DNA of 55,749 nt from Pantoea phytobeneficialis (GTDB lineage: Bacteria; Pseudomonadota; Gammaproteobacteria; Enterobacterales; Enterobacteriaceae): NCBI RefSeq assembly GCF_009728735.1, contig NZ_CP024640.1:211542-267290 (forward strand), given 5' to 3'. Below, one piece after another: positions 1 through 9,086 of this stretch. Position numbers and translations under genes: made by a program. Every line of letters starts with the position of its first letter. Positions within the stretch are counted from its first letter, which is position 1. The notes below the pieces were generated by a model. That model was not told where the DNA came from. It was given only the letters and a program-made list of their open reading frames with translations, and did no database searches.

Positions 1-62
1 TTGCCGGGCAACAGGCAGAGGTCGAGTTTGTTTTTACTGACATCAATACCGAGATAAATCAT
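1..62 (-). CDS. IS110-family transposase/recombinase, N-terminal fragment (gene continues beyond the window)
   Basis: Reading from the ATG at 62 downward gives 20 residues beginning MIYLGIDVSKNKLDL. The GIDVSK motif is the start of the RuvC-like DEDD domain of IS110 transposases, and its Asp (D7) is the first catalytic acid. Only this fragment is inside the window, so the rest of the DEDD domain and the Tnp20 serine domain cannot be checked. A purine-rich AAGGGAG lies about 8 bases upstream of the ATG and fits a ribosome binding site. The long non-coding stretch in front of the gene matches the IS110 group, in which the guide RNA lies 5' of the transposase. Confidence 0.88.
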   Translation of the reverse strand, partial: MIYLGIDVSKNKLDLCLLPG

Positions 63-84
63 AAGACAGCTCCCTTTCACATGA

Positions 85-232
85 ACCATCACGCCATCTT
101 GCCTTGTACATACGAAGTCAGAGCTTCTGGTTACCGTTCAGAGTAGATGCTGGCGTGAAAGGAGAAACGGAGGGCTTTAAGCTACGGCACAAGATCGGGT
201 CTTAAGCGGCGCGACAAGCTGCCTCCGTTTCG
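85..232 (-). ncRNA. Candidate IS110 bridge RNA (target-binding and donor-binding stem-loops)
   Basis: Minus-strand sequence upstream of the transposase forms two imperfect hairpins. The first has a 9-bp base stem (222-230 with 165-173) and a small top stem (AAGA/TCTT, 191-203). Its 5' internal loop contains TCGCGCCGCT (205-214), identical to the REP arm flanking the element, and its 3' internal loop contains CCGTAGC (181-187), complementary to GCTACGG of intact REP copies. The second has an 8-bp base stem (151-158 with 89-96) and a top stem GAAG/CTTC (114-127). Its 3' loop contains TACAAG (103-108), complementary to CTTGTA at the element's own boundary (272 down to 267). This is the left/right target guide and right donor guide layout known for IS110 bridge RNAs. 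The fold was made by eye; the exact RNA ends are unknown. Confidence 0.75.
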
Positions 233-270
233 TGTAACGGGTAGCTAACCAGTTACAACTTCAAGATACA

Positions 271-328
271 AGCGGCGCGATTTATCGCGCAGGTTTTGCC
301 GGACTGCGCGATAAATCGCGCCGCTACG
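271..328. repeat. REP-type palindromic repeat, long form, interrupted by the IS110 element
   Basis: Two arms, GCGGCGCGATTTATCGCGC (272-290) and GCGCGATAAATCGCGCCGCT (306-325), are inverted around a short spacer. Other copies begin CGTAGCGG; here the leading CGT is missing and the match starts exactly at the IS110 boundary. The intergenic stretch 63-383 therefore holds the IS non-coding end, this repeat and about 55 bases leading to the end of the DJ-1 family gene, where TCCGGGCC-type GC-rich sequence could weakly terminate transcription. Confidence 0.85.
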
Positions 329-1067: not shown

Positions 1068-1093
1068 GATAAATCCTCTTTTTACACAGTAAC

Positions 1094-2524
1094 TTACTGT
1101 TGTTGATCGAGCAGGGATGTCAGTAACGCCATCTTGTCCTGATAAGGGGCGCGCAGCCGCAGATTGGTGGTGCCCGCCTCGTCCTGCACCACCACAGGTT
1201 TGGCATGGCTAAAGCGGCGGAAACCGTGAATGCCGTGATATGCGCCTGTACCGGATGCCCCGACGCCGCCGAACGGCAAACTGTCGAGAGAAGCATGGGT
1301 CATGACGTCATTAATCACCAATGCGCCCGAGGTGGTGCGCTGTGCCATCTGTTGTTGACGTTGTGCATCGTTACCAAAATAGTAGGCCGCCAGCGGGCGT
1401 GGGTGTGCGTTGATGTAATCAATCGCTTCTGCCACCGACGTTGACCAGGTCTTGACAGGCAACAGTGGGCCAAAAATCTCCTCCTGCATCACTGCCATCT
1501 CTTCCGTCACCGCCAGAATTAAATGCGGGGCGATTTTTCTGCTATCGGCATCGAAAGCCGGTTCACCTTCGGGGGCCAGACTGATAATGCGTGCGCCTTT
1601 ATTTTGCGCATCCTCCAGCAGATTGATCAGCCGTTGATAATGGCGATCGCTGATGATAGCGGTGTAATCCGGGTTCGACTGTACGGTCGGGAATGCCTGC
1701 TGCATAAAGCTGCGAGCGGCGGTGACAAAGGCGTCTTCGGCACCCTCCGGCAGCAGCAGATAATCGGGAGAGATACAGATTTGCCCGGCGTTAAAGGTTT
1801 TGATGGTCAGGGTTCTCGCTGCGGCCAGCGCCGGATCCGCATCCACATCGACCACCACCGGCGATTTACCGCCCAGTTCCAGCGTGACCGGCACAAGATT
1901 TTCCGCCGCCGCACGCATAACGTGTTTGCCGACATTGGTGCTACCGGTAAACACCAGATGGTCGAAAGGCAGACGGCTGAAAGCCTGTCCGACATCGGCA
2001 TCACCCAGCACCACGGTTAGCTCCTGGGGATCAAAATAGCGGGCGACCAGCTCGGCCAGCAGTTCCGAGGTTTTCGGCGTCAGTTCTGAAGGCTTCAACA
2101 TCGCTGTATTCCCGGCAGCGAACACGCCTGCCAGCGGGCCAAAGGCGAGGTTAATCGGAAAATTCCACGGGCTGATAATGCCGACCACTCCGAGCGGTTG
2201 CGGCACAATCCATGCCTGCATGCCCGCTACCGGTACGTCGGCGCTTTCCGCTGCCATCCAGCTTTCAAGATTATCAGCGGAATGTTGCAGCATATTGATG
2301 GTGGTGACCAGGTCTGCCGCCATTGTCTGGTAAGCGCTGCGATGGCCGAAATCGGCGCTAATTGCGTTAGCGATCGCAGCATGATTGTCGCGAATCAGCG
2401 CGATGCTGCGTAGCAGACGGTCGCGACGTAATGCCGCAGAGGCTGGACCTGCCTGCAAATGGGCGTTTTTCATGCTGTGCAGAATGTGCAGCAACTGCTG
2501 ATCGTGTTGGGTAGCGTTCATCAT
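1094..2524 (-). CDS. calB: Coniferyl aldehyde dehydrogenase
   Basis: This 476-residue NAD(P)-dependent aldehyde dehydrogenase closely resembles CalB, which oxidises coniferyl aldehyde to ferulate. Visible motifs are the PWNFPINL cofactor/catalytic Asn region (Asn121), Lys144 in KPSE, the general base Glu216 in LELGGKSP, and the nucleophile Cys250 in FNAGQICISPDY. The C-terminal PFGGVGASGTGAYHG loop is also typical. Length is normal for the family. It is transcribed away from a LysR gene 112 bases upstream, its likely regulator, and is followed by the DJ-1 family gene. Broad-specificity fatty or aromatic aldehyde oxidation is an alternative, since specificity cannot be proved from motifs. Confidence 0.85.
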   Translation of the reverse strand: MMNATQHDQQLLHILHSMKNAHLQAGPASAALRRDRLLRSIALIRDNHAAIANAISADFGHRSAYQTMAADLVTTINMLQHSADNLESWMAAESADVPVAGMQAWIVPQPLGVVGIISPWNFPINLAFGPLAGVFAAGNTAMLKPSELTPKTSELLAELVARYFDPQELTVVLGDADVGQAFSRLPFDHLVFTGSTNVGKHVMRAAAENLVPVTLELGGKSPVVVDVDADPALAAARTLTIKTFNAGQICISPDYLLLPEGAEDAFVTAARSFMQQAFPTVQSNPDYTAIISDRHYQRLINLLEDAQNKGARIISLAPEGEPAFDADSRKIAPHLILAVTEEMAVMQEEIFGPLLPVKTWSTSVAEAIDYINAHPRPLAAYYFGNDAQRQQQMAQRTTSGALVINDVMTHASLDSLPFGGVGASGTGAYHGIHGFRRFSHAKPVVVQDEAGTTNLRLRAPYQDKMALLTSLLDQQQ

Positions 2525-2636
2525 GTTGTCCTGTTAAATCGGGTCACTGATTAAGATGCGAGGAGCTTACCTGCGCTGGATTTAGCTGGCTAACAAGGCT
2601 ATTTTGGTGGGGGTATAAATTTATTTATGGGGTCTT

Positions 2637-3527
2637 ATGTCACTGGTCCGTTTGCGTACCTTTATGGAGGTCTACCGTCAGCGTTCAATATCCGGTGCCG
2701 CCAGAGCGCTCAATCTGACGCAGCCTGCGGTTTCTCAACATATCAGCGGATTGGAAGTGGCCATCGGCCGACCGTTGTTTGAACGCCAGCCACAAGGAGT
2801 CTTGCCCACGCCAGCAGCCGAGGATCTGGCGGCGGATATTGGCAACAGCCTGGACACCGCGGAGTCGGCGCTGGCATCGGCGAGAGCGCGTTCTATGGAT
2901 GTCAGCGGTACGCTGCAAATCATCGGTCACGCCGATTTTATGGCGGATAAGCTGGCGGGGGAGTTGCTGCCGCTGCTGGAGAGTGGCATCCGGGTTCATA
3001 TGCATACCGGTGACGGACCGCTGGTGACGCAAATGGTGGTTGAGGGGCATTGCGATTTAGGCATTACGGCCCATCCGGTGACGGATAGCCGATTAAAAGG
3101 TGAAGTGATATTTCGCGATGAGGTTCTGGCAGTTGCCTCACCGGGCGTGGCGTCGCGACTGAATGCCAGTGCGGATTTTGCCACTGACTTACTGCGAGAA
3201 CCGCTCCTCGCGTATAACCTGGAATTGTCGCTGATTGACCACTGGCTGGAAAAAAACCGCATCAGCTACCAGACGCTGCTCCCGGCGATGGTCGGTCAGG
3301 ATTTACGCGGTCAACGTAGTTTGCTGGTCCAGGGGTTTGGCTGGTCGGTGATGCCGCAGTTTCTGTGCCAACAGCAGATCGAGCAGGGGGAGCTGGTGGC
3401 GCTCCACGCCCCGGTGGGGGACACCGAGATTCGCTACAATCTGGTGTGGCTGGCCAGCGCGTTACGTCAGCCCCGAGTCGCCCATGCCCGCCAGACGCTG
3501 GTGTGGCGGCTTAACCGGGCCGAGTGA
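2637..3527 (+). CDS. LysR-family transcriptional regulator, divergent from coniferyl aldehyde dehydrogenase
   Basis: This is a 296-residue LysR-type regulator. The N-terminal winged helix-turn-helix covers about residues 1-60 (LRTFMEVYRQRSISGAARALNL, then TQPAVSQHI), followed by a linker helix and a periplasmic-binding-protein-like effector domain to the C-terminus. The gene is divergent from calB across a 112-base intergenic region (2525-2636), the usual geometry for a LysR protein controlling its neighbour. A phenolic aldehyde or acid inducer is therefore a reasonable inference, not something the sequence shows. It ends 27 bases before the convergent tannase-family gene. Confidence 0.85.
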   Translation: MSLVRLRTFMEVYRQRSISGAARALNLTQPAVSQHISGLEVAIGRPLFERQPQGVLPTPAAEDLAADIGNSLDTAESALASARARSMDVSGTLQIIGHADFMADKLAGELLPLLESGIRVHMHTGDGPLVTQMVVEGHCDLGITAHPVTDSRLKGEVIFRDEVLAVASPGVASRLNASADFATDLLREPLLAYNLELSLIDHWLEKNRISYQTLLPAMVGQDLRGQRSLLVQGFGWSVMPQFLCQQQIEQGELVALHAPVGDTEIRYNLVWLASALRQPRVAHARQTLVWRLNRAE

Positions 3528-3554
3528 CAACTCACCCGCCCGGTCAGGAGATCA

Positions 3555-5339
3555 TTACGGCTGAATCTCCAGCCTGCCGCCTTTAGCGACATAGTTCTTT
3601 TGATTGTCAGGACCAATAAAATCGCTGGCCGGCTTACTCACCACCAGGTTGTCATAGGCTGCTGATTTCACTGACGCATAATTCTCCGCCTTGTCGAGTG
3701 AACCTGTACCCTTGTATTGCGCGATATACGGATAAGGGAAGACCGGTCGGGTGGCTTTTAAGGGAGGCATGGCAGTGGCTAGCGGTGAACTGGCGCGCTG
3801 AACGCCGTGAAATTGCACTTCGGCGCTTGCGTTGCCCGCGGGCATTTTGCCCTGGGGCGGCATCGGCGGCATATCCATGTTTGCCTGTTGAGCTGACTTA
3901 CCTGTCATCAGCGCTTGCGGTGCAACCTGTTGCTCGGTCCATGCCATCAATGGCGTCAGCAAATCGATCTGATCAAAACCTTCGCCGCCACCGCAGTGGG
4001 CCACACCAGGTAACAGGAACAGGCGGATAAATTTCTCCGTGGATTGCTTGCCAAGATAAGCCTCAACGCCACGATAATAGGCGATGGAGAATGCCGGACT
4101 GACAGAGTCATCCGCCAAACCGTGCCACATAATCAGCTTTCCGCCACGCGCCATATAGCGGCTCAGGTTGGTGTTGGCGGCGTTATACAACGGAGCCAGC
4201 TGTGCGACCGCCGTGAAGTTCTGCTTGTTCAACGGAAAATCGCGCATCGTGGTGATATTTTGTTTGCCACCCGGCAGCAATACCGATTGCAGCGCGGGCA
4301 GTGCCATCATCTCCGACATCGAGTGGCCATTGGCGCTTGCTGGCACCGGCCAGCGTAACTCTGACCCCAAGGGCAGACCGGCTGGCACAAATTGATTGCC
4401 TGCGCTGTCGTAAGCTCCACGATAGAGTTTTTCCGCCACGCCGATTTCTTCTGCGGTCAGACAGTCTGATTTATCGCTTTGGTTGGCGGCACAGCTCTTC
4501 ACCCAGTTGGGGGAGAAGGTGCAGGCATACGGATTTGCCAGCAAACCATCGTTGACGCCAGAAAGTGTTGGACAGTGCGCCAGCACCGCACGATGGAGAA
4601 TCGGCAGGCGGTCTTTCAGCAGGATTGCGCTGCCATCCGCGCGTTGATTGGCGACTACATTCCAGCCGTGGAAAAAGGAGTTTTGGAACTGGAAAAAAGC
4701 CGCCGGTGCGCCGGCGCTGATGCCATCAAAATCATCCGGGAAGCGTTGTGCTTCCATCAGCGCTTCGCGTCCGCCATCGGAGCAGCCCATAAAGTAGGCG
4801 TATTTTTGCGCCTGGCCGTAGTAAGCCCGGATCAAGGCTTTGGCCAGTTGCGCGGTGAGATGATTGGCGCGATACGCAAAATCGATACGTTTTTGTGGTT
4901 CCTCTGCCCAACTGGCATCCATCATGCCGCCGCTATGGCCCATATCTGTCGCTGCAACGACAAACTCGCCCTGAGTGGCGGGCACACAGCCGTTGGCATT
5001 CGACAGGCTGAGGTTAATTTGGCCGCATAATCCGCCACAGCCCACTTGCAGAAAACGTTGTGTCCACTGCTGTTGCGGTAGCGCTACCTCAACACCGATC
5101 GCCGGTGCGATGCTGGCCTTAACCTGGCAGAATGTCCCTTTATCAGTTTTCAGGGACGTGGCAGATGTGAGGGTGACTTTCTCACCAAGTTTGTCGCTAA
5201 AGTTAACGGTCGTTAACTGGCCACAGTCCAGCACCGGCTTCACAATGGCTAAGTTCACGGACGCACTCACCTGCGTCGCAAGTAGCATGACGCCAATGGC
5301 GATCAGCCATCCGGAGATTCTGGTTGTTATCGTATTCAT
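3555..5339 (-). CDS. Tannase/feruloyl esterase family secreted hydrolase
   Basis: This exported alpha/beta hydrolase of about 594 residues releases phenolic acids (ferulate, gallate) from plant esters in characterised relatives. The ATG at 5339 is preferred over a TTG at 5405 because it is followed at once by a signal peptide (GWLIAIGVMLLATQVSAS). The family's Cys-Ser/Asp/His-Cys triad is complete: Cys186-Ser187 in MGCSDGGREA, Asp410 or Asp411 in HGLADDSVSP and His448-Cys449 in GVAHCGGG, where the adjacent cysteines normally form a disulfide joining the catalytic Ser and His. Further cysteine pairs suit an oxidising compartment. Coniferyl aldehyde dehydrogenase and its LysR lie next door, pointing to plant phenolics. 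The exact ester is not predictable. Confidence 0.82.
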   Translation of the reverse strand: MNTITTRISGWLIAIGVMLLATQVSASVNLAIVKPVLDCGQLTTVNFSDKLGEKVTLTSATSLKTDKGTFCQVKASIAPAIGVEVALPQQQWTQRFLQVGCGGLCGQINLSLSNANGCVPATQGEFVVAATDMGHSGGMMDASWAEEPQKRIDFAYRANHLTAQLAKALIRAYYGQAQKYAYFMGCSDGGREALMEAQRFPDDFDGISAGAPAAFFQFQNSFFHGWNVVANQRADGSAILLKDRLPILHRAVLAHCPTLSGVNDGLLANPYACTFSPNWVKSCAANQSDKSDCLTAEEIGVAEKLYRGAYDSAGNQFVPAGLPLGSELRWPVPASANGHSMSEMMALPALQSVLLPGGKQNITTMRDFPLNKQNFTAVAQLAPLYNAANTNLSRYMARGGKLIMWHGLADDSVSPAFSIAYYRGVEAYLGKQSTEKFIRLFLLPGVAHCGGGEGFDQIDLLTPLMAWTEQQVAPQALMTGKSAQQANMDMPPMPPQGKMPAGNASAEVQFHGVQRASSPLATAMPPLKATRPVFPYPYIAQYKGTGSLDKAENYASVKSAAYDNLVVSKPASDFIGPDNQKNYVAKGGRLEIQP

Positions 5340-5449
5340 GGTATCGGTTCCCGTTTTGTCACCGTGTTGCTGTGGTTTTAATCTGGGAATGATAGCCAGA
5401 AGCAAAATTTTAACGTGGATTTTTTCGGTATTTTAACGAATCAATCTGA

Positions 5450-5612
5450 CTAACCTGCGCCCTCAGTTCTGGTCCAGCCAGCCAATAAAAAATCACTAAA
5501 CGCCGCCACTTGCAGCGGCTGAAAGCGTCGCTGCGGATAAACGAACTGCAATCCGACCAGGCGACTATCGTTACGACTGAAACCGATAAAGTGGTCGCCA
5601 AATGGCGCTTTT
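5450..5612 (-). pseudogene. Remnant of a LysR-type regulator (C-terminal end only)
   Basis: Minus-strand translation ending at the stop at 5450 contains a stretch around LQFVYPQRRFQPLQVAAFSDFL, the typical extreme C-terminus of a LysR effector domain (valine-tyrosine-proline, arginines, then an F-x-D-F helix). No DNA-binding domain or further effector sequence precedes it; upstream the frame runs into the YeaO-like gene, whose own product is in another frame. I read this as a decayed gene left after a deletion. It occupies most of the 5340-5633 gap between the tannase and YeaO-like genes. Confidence 0.6.
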
Positions 5613-5633
5613 GTTATAAGGCTACGTAAGCGT

Positions 5634-5972
5634 TTAGGGTAATGAACGCAACCATCCCGCCAGCACTTCAGCGTGGTTCTGTGTCGTATTCTTTGTCGCA
5701 TAAAGCAGCGTGACGTTTCCTTTAGCGACCAACTGACGTCCTTCAGGCGCATGCCCGGCAAGCTCCTGTAAATACGCTTCACGAAACGCGGTGAAATCGA
5801 TGAAATCAGCATGGAATGCTTTACGTAATTCTGTGGAGGGAGCCAGAGTTTTATTCCATTCATCGTATTGAAGATCGGTCTTCTTCATTCCGCGCGGCCA
5901 GAGTCGATCGACCAGCACCCGATAGCCGTCCTCAGATGATGCGGGTTCATAAACGCGTTTACAGTGGATCAC
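5634..5972 (-). CDS. yeaO: DUF488 family protein, YeaO homologue
   Basis: This 112-residue protein aligns along its length with E. coli YeaO: CKRVYEPASSEDGYRVLVDRLWPRG at the start, then STELRKAFHADFIDFTAFREAYL, and LLYATKNTTQNHAEVLAGWLRSL at the end. It is about three residues shorter than E. coli YeaO, with the gap in the loop before VTLLYA. DUF488 proteins are small, cytoplasmic and of unknown biochemical function; conserved Arg and Asn residues suggest nucleotide or anion binding. The gene is transcribed away from the TonB receptor, with 208 bases between them. The LysR remnant overlaps its downstream side. Confidence 0.85.
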   Translation of the reverse strand: MIHCKRVYEPASSEDGYRVLVDRLWPRGMKKTDLQYDEWNKTLAPSTELRKAFHADFIDFTAFREAYLQELAGHAPEGRQLVAKGNVTLLYATKNTTQNHAEVLAGWLRSLP

Positions 5973-6117
5973 GTTAATTACTCCCTTTCTTTTTCGTATC
6001 TCCTTATTTTATCCATAATTTTAATTACCTGGTTATTAACATCAGGATTGAGATAAAGGAGGTAACCTAATGCGATTAGGTGTGTCATTTTGTTTCGGTT
6101 ATGTCAAATATCGGAAT

Positions 6118-6136
6118 GATTATGATAATTATTCGC
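6118..6136 (+). promoter_or_regulatory. Predicted Fur box
   Basis: GATTATGATAATTATTCGC matches the 19-bp Fur consensus GATAATGATAATCATTATC at 15 positions. It lies 45 bases before the start of the TonB-dependent receptor gene, where iron-loaded Fur would cover the promoter. This fits iron-repressed expression of a siderophore receptor. Confidence 0.75.
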
Positions 6137-6180
6137 ATGCTCATTTCTGAGTATGGAAAATAATAACTGGACGTAACAAA

Positions 6181-8472
6181 ATGTCTCACTTAATTGGAAA
6201 AAGGAAAACGACCCTTTCATTACTGATTGGGCTGGTCATCCACAGTGGCTTCTCTCTGGCAGCCGAAACACCATCAAATGTTTTATCGTTACAGGAGCAG
6301 GGGGCAGCAACCGCAACTGACGCTGACTCCGGGCAGAAAAGCAAAACCGAACCGACGGTCAATCCGACCAACGAAGACACTATGGTCGTCTCGGCCAAAG
6401 CTGAAGAGAAACTGAAGCAGCAGCCTGGTGCATCGCTGATTACCAAAGAAGATTTGGAACGCAATCCGCCGGTCAACGATCTGTCCGAAATCATTCGCAA
6501 AATGCCGGGTGTGAACTTAACCGGTAACAGCGCAACCGGTAGCCGTGGTAACAACCGTCAGATTGATATTCGCGGTATGGGGCCAGAAAACACCCTGATC
6601 CTGATCGATGGTGTGCCCGTCTCTTCCCGTAGTTCCGTGCGCTACAGCCGCACCGGCGAACGTGACACCCGTGGCGACAGCAACTGGGTTCCGCCGGAAA
6701 TGGTCGACCATATCGATGTGTTACGTGGCCCGGCGGCGGCACATTATGGTTCCGGCGCGATGGGCGGCGTGGTGAACATCATCACCAAACGTCCCACCAA
6801 TGACTGGCATGGTTCACTGTCGCTCTACACCAATCAACCGGAAGACAAGGATGAAGGCGCGACCAAACGCATGAACGTCAGCCTGAGCGGTCCACTGGTG
6901 GATGATGTGCTGACCATGCGTCTGTACGGCAACATCAACAAAACCGATGCTGATGCCTACGATATTAATACCAACGAAAACGGTTCTTACGCGGCAGGTC
7001 GTGAGGGCGTGCGCAACCGCGATATCAACACAGCGGTGCAGTGGAAGATCAATCCGCAGCAGTACATGGATTTCAACTACGCCTACAGCCGCCAGGGCAA
7101 TATCTATGCCGGTGATACCCAATACAGCAACAGCAACCTGAGTACCCTGGTGCCGACCTTATACGGTCAGGAAACCAACCGCATGTATCGCCAGGCCTAC
7201 AGCGTGACCCATAACGGCATCTGGGACTGGGGCCAGTCCAAACTGACCCTGAGCTATGAAGATACCCACAACACGCGGCTCGACGAAGGCTCTACCGGCA
7301 AAGTGGAAGGGATGATCAACAGCGACACCTACAACACCAGCCGTTATAAAACCTGGCGCATCAATAATGAGTACACCATCCCCTTCACCCTGCTGGTGGA
7401 CAATACTCTGACGCTGGGAGCTGAATGGAATAAGGAGCAGTTGAACGATCCGGCATCAATGCAGGAAACGGATGCGACCGGTATCGATATCAATGGTGTA
7501 TCGGGCGATCCTTCCCAGCGCAGCAGCAAAAACAGCCAGGAACTGAGCGCCATTTACCTGGAAGACACCATTGATGCCTTCGACGCCACCACATTGATTC
7601 CGGGCCTGCGTTTTGATTACAGCGATCGCTTCGGCAGCAACTGGAGTCCCAGCCTGAACATTCAGCAGGAATTGGGTGATCACTTCACGCTGAAAGCCGG
7701 TATCGCGCGTGTGTTCAAAGCGCCAAACCTGTATCAGTCCAGCGAAGGCTACCTGCTGGCGAGCAGCGGTAACGGTTGTAACATTGGGGGCAGCAACGGC
7801 TGTTATCTGATGGGTAATAGCGATCTGAAACCTGAAATCAGCGTCAACAAAGAGGTTGGGCTGCAATGGACTGATGAAGGTTACAGCGCCGGACTGACGT
7901 ATTTCCGCAACGATTATCAGAACAAAATCGTCGCGGGGGATAATTCGCTGGGTACGGTGAGTGTGGCAAGTTCCTGGTATTCTTCCACTTATGATATCTA
8001 CCAGTGGCAGAATGGTGGTAAGGCGCTGACGCAGGGCCTTGAAGCCAACCTGACCATTCCGTTGGTGGAAGATACCCTGAACTGGCGTACCAACGCGACT
8101 TACATGTTCACCTCGAAATATAAATCGACCGGTAACCCGTTATCGTTAATCCCGAAATATACGGTAAACAGCTGGCTGGATTGGCAGATGACCGATGCAC
8201 TCTCCGCCACCTTAAGCTGGACCATGTATGGCCGCCAGCATCCGCGTACTACAGCAGAAATTCGTAAGGAAGCCAGCGGATTGTCGGAAAATGAGGTGGG
8301 GGCTTACGCCATCTTTGGTGTCGGTATGAACTACCAGTACAACAAGAATCTGCGATTCACTGCCGGTGTCAGCAACCTGCTGAACAAGCAAATCTATCGT
8401 GAAAACGAAGGCGCTTCGACCTATAACGAACCGGGTCGCGCGTATTATGCAGGTGTGACAACTTCGTTCTGA
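6181..8472 (+). CDS. TonB-dependent catecholate siderophore receptor (FepA/PfeA/IroN-like)
   Basis: This 763-residue outer membrane receptor has a signal peptide (residues 1-28, ending SGFSLAA), a TonB box DTMVVSA at about 66-72, a plug domain (about 80-220, with LSEIIRKMPGVNL and IDIRGMGPENTLILIDG) and a 22-strand barrel ending in phenylalanine (TTSF). The plug motif VLRGPAAAHYGSGAMGGVVNIITK is typical of enterobactin-class receptors, and total length is close to FepA (746). It would import ferric catecholates using TonB-ExbBD energy. The gene stands alone behind a Fur box, with no biosynthesis or ABC transport genes nearby. IroN and PfeA are close alternatives, so no symbol is given. Confidence 0.88.
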   Translation: MSHLIGKRKTTLSLLIGLVIHSGFSLAAETPSNVLSLQEQGAATATDADSGQKSKTEPTVNPTNEDTMVVSAKAEEKLKQQPGASLITKEDLERNPPVNDLSEIIRKMPGVNLTGNSATGSRGNNRQIDIRGMGPENTLILIDGVPVSSRSSVRYSRTGERDTRGDSNWVPPEMVDHIDVLRGPAAAHYGSGAMGGVVNIITKRPTNDWHGSLSLYTNQPEDKDEGATKRMNVSLSGPLVDDVLTMRLYGNINKTDADAYDINTNENGSYAAGREGVRNRDINTAVQWKINPQQYMDFNYAYSRQGNIYAGDTQYSNSNLSTLVPTLYGQETNRMYRQAYSVTHNGIWDWGQSKLTLSYEDTHNTRLDEGSTGKVEGMINSDTYNTSRYKTWRINNEYTIPFTLLVDNTLTLGAEWNKEQLNDPASMQETDATGIDINGVSGDPSQRSSKNSQELSAIYLEDTIDAFDATTLIPGLRFDYSDRFGSNWSPSLNIQQELGDHFTLKAGIARVFKAPNLYQSSEGYLLASSGNGCNIGGSNGCYLMGNSDLKPEISVNKEVGLQWTDEGYSAGLTYFRNDYQNKIVAGDNSLGTVSVASSWYSSTYDIYQWQNGGKALTQGLEANLTIPLVEDTLNWRTNATYMFTSKYKSTGNPLSLIPKYTVNSWLDWQMTDALSATLSWTMYGRQHPRTTAEIRKEASGLSENEVGAYAIFGVGMNYQYNKNLRFTAGVSNLLNKQIYRENEGASTYNEPGRAYYAGVTTSF

Positions 8473-8500
8473 TCGCTGAAAGGGAAGACCTGAGAAAATC

Positions 8501-8528
8501 GTAGCGGCGCGATTTATCGCGCTGCTAC
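8501..8528. repeat. REP-type repeat, single-hairpin form
   Basis: GTAGCGGCGCGATTTATCGC followed by GCTGCTAC forms one hairpin with GTAGC/GCTAC ends. It sits between the TonB receptor and the convergent flavodoxin gene, and its minus-strand sequence supplies the last codons and the TAA stop (8514) of the flavodoxin gene. It may also act as a terminator for both genes. Confidence 0.85.
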
Positions 8529-9086
8529 CAACCAGTCGAGGGTTTTTTCCATGGTCTGGCGTTCCTGATCGGCCTGCATAATAAAAGGCGCAAGGAGATG
8601 GGCAGCCGGCGCTGATTTTTCCAGCACGGCCAGACTGTCCCCGATGCCATAACCACCATGCGTGATAAACGGAACAATCGTTATTCCCGAGAAATCATGA
8701 CGCGTTAAAAAAGAACGGACGATGGCAGGCAAACTCATTCCCCAGATTGGATAGCCAAGGTAGATGGTTTTATAACGTTTTATCTCAGCCAGATCATGCA
8801 GCAATGGCGGATTAAATCCGTTTTTGCGTTCATCGCTTGCCTGTTCAACCATCTGGAGATAATCAGCCGGGTAGGGTGTTTGCGGCAGGATTTCATGTAG
8901 ATCGGCTTGCAGGGCGCGCTGAAGAATCCCGGCAATCACCCGCGTGTTGCCGCTGCGTGAATGATAAGCCACCAGCGAATCCGACTGACCGGTGATGATT
9001 GCCGCTGCGGCTGGCTGCGTCAGCAGGGAAATACCCGCGAGAAAAGGCAGTAGCTCCCTGCGAGACAGGTTAATGTTATCGTCCAT
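8514..9086 (-). CDS. Tat-exported flavodoxin-like protein
   Basis: This 190-residue protein has a twin-arginine signal near the N-terminus (SRRELLPFLAGISLL, then QPAAAA) and then a flavodoxin fold. AYHSRSGNTR is the FMN phosphate-binding loop, YLGYPIWGMSLP the segment before the second flavin-contacting loop, and THGGYGIGDS the third. Secreted flavodoxins of this type are predicted periplasmic FMN redox proteins, folded in the cytoplasm with cofactor before Tat export. No reductase partner is adjacent. The C-terminal VAAR plus stop is encoded by the REP repeat, suggesting the original end was replaced or extended by repeat insertion. Confidence 0.78.
   Translation of the reverse strand: MDDNINLSRRELLPFLAGISLLTQPAAAAIITGQSDSLVAYHSRSGNTRVIAGILQRALQADLHEILPQTPYPADYLQMVEQASDERKNGFNPPLLHDLAEIKRYKTIYLGYPIWGMSLPAIVRSFLTRHDFSGITIVPFITHGGYGIGDSLAVLEKSAPAAHLLAPFIMQADQERQTMEKTLDWLVAAR

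Follow-up and report, generated by a model that had tools for sequence, protein, structure and literature searches.

Predicted bridge RNA guides of an IS621-like IS110 element match the REP arms that harbor it in Pantoea phytobeneficialis

The element and its REP arm

The stretch of DNA analyzed here, called the window, comprises 55,749 nucleotides of the Pantoea phytobeneficialis genome (G000). A plasmid of Pantoea sp. At-9b aligns to 68% of positions 1090-9000 with 87% identity, which makes a host in or close to Pantoea probable. Its left edge carries, on the minus strand, the start of an IS110 transposase gene and a non-coding end that abuts a broken REP arm, with the following features.

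1..62, minus strand: start of the IS110 transposase gene (ATGATTTATCTCGGTATTGATGTC...), from the sequence, cut by the assembly gap at the window edge
85..264, minus strand: predicted bridge RNA region (covariance model match of 142.3 bits, fold, structure kept in relatives)
233..258, minus strand: 5' stem-loop of the predicted bridge RNA (fold, compensatory changes in relatives)
164..231, minus strand: target-binding loop and its enclosing stem (222-231 with 164-173), from the predicted fold and relatives
205..214, minus strand: left target guide (LTG) TCGCGCCGCT, 10/10 match to the flanking REP arm at 271-280
181..187, minus strand: right target guide (RTG) CCGTAGC, complement GCTACGG (CTAC at 13/13 visible right junctions of sister copies)
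90..157, minus strand: donor-binding loop and its enclosing stem (151-157 with 90-96), from the predicted fold and relatives
129..139, minus strand: left donor guide (LDG) GAACGGTAACC, with ACGGTA in common with the right end ACGGTAG-CT of 13 sister copies
102..113, minus strand: right donor guide (RDG) GTATGTACAAGG, in which TACAAG (103-108) is complementary to the boundary sequence CTTGTA (267-272) on the left
263..268, minus strand: -10-like box TATCTT, predicted half of a circle-junction promoter
271..272, minus strand: core dinucleotide CT of the left junction, from the sequence, same in sister copies
271..290, minus strand: broken REP arm GCGCGATAAATCGCGCCGCT, recipient of the element (18/18 copies share the TCGCGCCGCT junction)
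306..327, plus strand: second arm of this REP pair, on the opposite side, intact and still a full target, with TCGCGCCGCTAC at 316-327

The left boundary of the element lies at 270 and the transposase ATG at 62, with 208 non-coding bases between them on the minus strand. A long non-coding end upstream of the transposase gene is described as the mark that sets the IS110 type apart from IS1111 (PMC11187229, in the part concerned), and the window element has such an end. Its own transposase lay outside the domain scan because the window contains no more of the gene than its first 62 bases, most of it being hidden by the assembly gap. Two congener copies (L051 and L065) encode a 327-residue protein with the DEDD_Tnp_IS110 (PF01548) and Transposase_20 (PF02371) domains of the IS110 family. 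The family's core dinucleotide is also found: CT precedes the left end in 18/18 copies and follows the right end in all 13 that are visible. The PF01548 search of G000 found no whole transposase of the element; it gave a single partial match below the curated cut-off, the copies being interrupted by assembly gaps. The transposase of a copy in another genome (G041) matches those of IS621 (PDB 8wt6, E 1.2e-51, 179 bits) and ISCro4 (PDB 9t56, E 5.5e-52). Hiraizumi et al. (2024) is reportedly a further paper on IS621.

The sequence-only reading of this locus had proposed that the guides of an IS110 bridge RNA match the REP arm in which the element sits. The match itself was confirmed and its interpretation supported: the target-loop guides TCGCGCCGCT and CCGTAGC fit the arm, the former over all 10 bases, and the arm is broken directly after CT, as had been claimed. 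The complementarity of TACAAG to the boundary CTTGTA holds as well. Positions 1-270 (minus strand) are the left end of a multi-copy, IS621-like IS110 element that is very probably guided by RNA into REP arms.

The arm belongs to an abundant family. The G000 genome contains 549 intact TCGCGCCGCTAC sites, as against seven for the reversed control, and the arm at 306-327 shows the REP hallmarks of a multi-copy palindrome with a GTAG head (read as CTAC at 324-327). A RAYT gene accompanying the REPs, as in a REPtron, was not seen in G000: a search with PF01797 (Y1_Tnp/RAYT) gave no match there, the same search being positive in E. coli and four other control genomes. The genome thus holds about 550 intact REP arms and no detectable mobilising enzyme for them.

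Copies in the assembly and their junctions

When the assembly was searched with the left end, 18 copies were recovered. Each of the 18 has TCGCGCCG-CT, with the full TCGCGCCGCT, at its left junction, and the outer left flanks differ within 50 bases beyond it. In 13 copies the right end can be seen as well, connected to the left one through a gap by scaffolding alone; it reads ...CAAGACGGTAG-CT, and the junction, starting with this CT, has CTAC in all of them, as CTACGG (7), CTACAA (3), CTACAG (2) or CTACGT (1). These 13 right flanks are mutually different, those of L032 and L043 diverging only after about 14 shared bases. The other five copies, including that of the window, have no visible right end, one being at a contig end and four having other sequence past the gap. 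Position 1 of the window adjoins a 100-N gap and the sequence beyond it is not an IS end, so that the right junction is known only from sister copies, the gap hiding that of the window copy. Such a gap lies inside 17 of the 18 copies (L031-L048), the remaining one being at a contig end; the window begins at a gap because assembly gaps fall inside copies of this IS.

These junctions bear on three earlier expectations. That all copies would sit in REP arms at CT was borne out, no other junction being found among the 18. A REP remainder at the far junction was likewise recovered, CTAC being lacking in none of the 13 visible cases, and the more precise prediction of CTACGG or CTACGA fits 7 of 13. 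The 5' guide of the donor loop had been misplaced at GCATCTACTCT (140-150): that string is not the guide, since the sister right end, given above, shares ACGGTA with GAACGGTAACC at 129-139, the match ending at the next base.

The bridge RNA and the circle junction

The minus strand of 85-264 is predicted to fold into a 5' hairpin, a stem with the target loop and a stem with the donor loop (z -2.83), and none of 200 shuffles of the sequence folded as well, in agreement with the two-loop structure first proposed. The bridge RNA of a copy in the congener G059 has a fold z of -3.99. Compensatory changes were found in 24 of 42 consensus pairs among 12 close sequences and in 14 of 19 pairs in a wider set of 17; the consensus fold of the latter lacks the outer stems, which probably reflects misaligned lengths, and the closer set recovers them. 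A covariance model built from 17 sequences, the window among them, gave matches of the expected orientation in 73 of 76 sources with E up to 0.005, the sources being 68 relative loci, seven congener loci and the window and including the 17 model sequences. Conservation of the fold in relatives, on which the sequence-only reading also depended, is thereby upheld. Two loci (L145 and L151) start within the gene, and L173 has no match to the model. A search of the window against Rfam at the gathering threshold gave no match, so that at this cut-off the RNA falls outside the curated families.

Judged from its sequence and predicted fold, the element thus has a two-loop RNA matching target and circle junction, as in IS621. 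In addition, when right end, CT and left end are joined computationally, TTGACG from the right end and TATCTT are separated by a 17-nt spacer, a putative promoter that, going by the sequence, would be complete only when the element is excised as a circle. A promoter across the circle junction has likewise been reported for IS621 (PMC11208160, in the section concerned).

A one-base guide change in a congener

The left end was matched in 11 of 147 genomes searched, G000 included. G041 has one copy (L051) of 1417 bp at TCGCGCCG-CT-ACGG; its length exceeds that of the G059 element by 210 bp, and a REP-like palindrome, GTAGGGTGCGAATTTATTCGCACC, lies close to its right end. G059 has ten copies of 1207 bp whose LTG, TTGCGCCGCT, is one base off the window guide. 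Nine of the ten are inserted at TTGCGCCG, one at GTGCGCCG and none at TCGCGCCG, with CTAC on the right side in 10/10. Both arm types are available in G059, where the intact T-type 13-mer ATTGCGCCGCTAC occurs 103 times and the C-type 13-mer ATCGCGCCGCTAC 100 times, and an unused C-type arm lies at most 150 bp away in six of the ten insertions. The use of T-type arms in 9/9 cases has a binomial p of 0.002, or 0.003 when occupied sites are counted. The corresponding 18/18 at C-type arms in G000 (chance 0.25) says little because these arms dominate there, at 543 to 44. The switch of one guide base together with the matching target base supports guiding by the RNA, as far as sequences can tell. It amounts to a field test of bridge RNA targeting, with congeneric elements one guide base apart, REP arms differing by the same base and both arms at hand.

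Guides and targets among relatives

Relatives were taken as the best 80 of 389 loci from one scan of named genomes; 68 were used, 12 loci of Pseudomonas sp. BN417 being omitted as likely copies of one element. Of 74 rows, 60 pairs were kept after 14 had been dropped before counting (seven LT+LTG duplicates, three at a contig edge, two with a cut left end, one without the boundary motif and one antisense). The LTG matches the target at a mean of 6.07 of 7 positions in these pairs, versus 2.79 when shuffled (maximum 3.35 in 2000 shuffles). A second set came from 369 genomes of the class, 21 of which had matches (G000 included), with 27 loci outside G000; 15 were kept, five duplicates and seven loci without the boundary motif being dropped, and their mean match is 6.87/7, versus 3.48 shuffled (maximum 5.07). 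This set is not fully independent because two of its ten elements with the right guide GTAG (L190 and L203) come from a single genome and because it includes relatives of the first set.

The right guide covaries with its target too. When the RTG is GTAG, the right side begins with AC in 31/31 elements whose right end was found, and with other RTGs in 0/10; the right ends had been located via the left donor guide and not via the right guide.

The LTG fits poorly in L105 (2 of 7), L110, L164 and L159 (3 each) and L060 (1), either because targeting is loose or because the boundary was misplaced. The left end of L060 (G050) is preceded by ACACGGTAG-CT, a sequence similar to the right end of an IS, as might result from a tandem or donor-into-donor insertion. 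Three enterobacterial loci, L106, L107 and L110, have the common left guide CCCCCTTCCCT, and their sites match it at 6, 5 and 3 of 7 positions; this branch, with the right guide GCAG, possibly has relaxed targeting. L195, L204 and L208 (G358) represent a multi-copy element that matches the bridge RNA model and in which no left boundary of the CTTGTAT type was found. They share GGTTTGTAGCCC near the expected boundary, perhaps with another core.

The right guide GUAG and hairpin arms

The RTG GTAG is carried by 35 of the 60 elements, with 28 distinct left 7-mers among them. Inverted-repeat arms with at least 7 of 9 complementary bases are found at 24 of these 35 insertions and arms with 8-9 of 9 at 20, as opposed to 0/25 at either threshold for other RTGs. 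Among 12593 control sites the proportions are 11.6% and 1.45%; these are CT (or TT) sites in the flanks, 2866 of them from the window, with genic and intergenic sites pooled, which leaves room for an intergenic bias. In the second set, the GTAG elements are at such arms in 10/10 cases at 7 or more and 6/10 at 8 or more, and the other RTGs in 0/5, with controls at 12.0% and 1.5% of 1104 and Fisher p values of 0.0003 and 0.044, respectively.

Shared descent was taken into account with a tree of 58 transposases (L059 absent), on which the RTG label changes eight times. Across six independent pairs, an average of 4.1 were concordant for hairpins at 7 or more and never opposite (median p 0.125), and 2.8 at 8 or more (median p 0.25). 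An earlier tree of 44 rows, from which 15 proteins were absent, gave 5.3 (p 0.0625) and 4.1 (p 0.125), respectively. This phylogeny-aware test therefore runs in the direction of the counts and is not significant.

Enrichment in the hosts was assessed with the pattern CCMAHCCTAC, which fits the element's own target in 10 of 11 hosts. It is more than twice as frequent as its reversed control in six of the ten (L108 187:52, L101 42:18, L148 201:37, L129 258:35, L162 32:1, L176 83:18) and not in the other four (L114 19:58, L100 16:28, L152 53:74, L117 23:22). The host of L123, whose own target falls outside the pattern, was counted apart and has a ratio of 332:21; in G000, which has different REPs, the ratio is 22:45.

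As the sequences suggest, a right guide GUAG would recognise CTAC, which is complementary to the GTAG head, and the arm would be recognised by the left guide. Taken together, the observations tilt us slightly toward the view that the IS110 elements of the IS621-like kind are a lineage guided by RNA and specialised on REP networks, with GUAG fixed on the REP head and the left guide repeatedly re-tuned to the arm of the host. Searches of the open-licence part of PubMed Central turned up no publication that connects GUAG guides with REP heads. The suggested rule, by which a right guide GUAG stands for a REP head, would predict which IS110 elements colonise REP networks and how guides become re-tuned when the host changes, and would help in choosing new bridge recombinases.

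Transposition model and alternatives

Anatomy, junctions, the distribution of copies and the covariation of guides and targets among relatives, with the one-base switch of the congener, were read from genome sequences. For transcription, circle formation, complex assembly and catalysis, we infer the course from IS621. Excision would join the right end to the left end through the CT core, and the junction promoter (TTGACG, 17 nt, TATCTT) would then drive expression of the bridge RNA encoded in the left end. The target loop would pair with both strands of the REP arm, the left guide with the arm and the right guide with CTAC, the donor loop would pair with the circle junction, and the transposase would exchange strands at CT. 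As the target loop would pair with the REP arm, the element could reach hundreds of such arms across the host genome.

The transposase might instead recognise REP hairpins itself, by shape or sequence, the loop match arising by coincidence or descent. RAYT transposases do target REP hairpins as proteins (PMC8266576, in the passages at hand), and the location of 24/35 GTAG elements at hairpin arms would suit such a protein. The one-base guide switch in G059 is however accompanied by a one-base target switch, and relatives with other guides sit at non-palindromic sites that mostly match those guides, which makes this explanation very improbable. Less probable still is the idea that the guide-like strings were picked up from REPs by the end of the element and have no guiding function: the LTG indeed agrees with the REP arm at all 10 bases, but in relatives the same loop position holds non-REP strings that match their own targets. 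Equally slight are the chances that the 18 copies stem from recombination between element-bearing REPs, which as repeats could recombine, and not from independent targeting, given that their left flanks all differ within 50 bases, that the 13 right flanks differ mutually and that the G059 copies use one arm type.

Relation to known systems

Guidance by RNA into REPs thus remains the preferred reading, and REPs are known as landing sites for other enzymes as well. Many tabulated REPs have a GTAG head beside the hairpin, some Pseudomonas REPs having GTGG (Nunvar, 2010, PMC2817692, as far as its tables go). For RAYT transposases, GTAG plays a part in recognition and, in one system where this was tested, also in the choice of cut site (PMC8266576, in its relevant passages). 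As described in parts of these two sources, RAYT/TnpA-REP systems resemble the window element in reading the REP tetranucleotide GTAG and cutting at CT, but they rely on a tyrosine (HuH) transposase that acts on single-stranded hairpins and takes GTAG as a DNA motif (PMC2817692; PMC8266576). The window's genome also differs from RAYT systems in its lack of a PF01797 match.

The association of IS110 elements with REPs is itself old knowledge (PMC1525189, in its tables). ISPpu9, ISPpu10, ISPa11 and ISRm19 are listed there as IS110 family members in REPs (Tobes and Pareja, 2006, PMC1525189), and every counted copy is in a REP, as for the window element (7/7, 7/7, 6/6 and, depending on the table, 2/2 or 4/4). 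Their hosts and REPs are other ones, and the entries of that paper describe them without a guide RNA (PMC1525189).

REP targeting by a bridge RNA-bearing IS110 element has already been published for IS621, of which the window element is a further case; the sequence-only reading was right that the guides follow bridge RNA logic and omitted this precedent (PMC11208160, in part). IS621 of E. coli, on which the characterisation of bridge RNAs was carried out, targets REPs (Durrant et al., 2024, PMC11208160). According to the sections of that paper on its structure and targets, it has, like the window element, a bridge RNA upstream of the transposase gene, two loops, a CT core and a junction promoter, and it also inserts into REPs at CT-AC, with the natural target ATCAGGCCTAC (PMC11208160). 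The window element differs from IS621 in a transposase that is only distantly similar (the 179 bits to 8wt6 of the G041 copy) and in a left guide tuned to another REP (TCGCGCCG).
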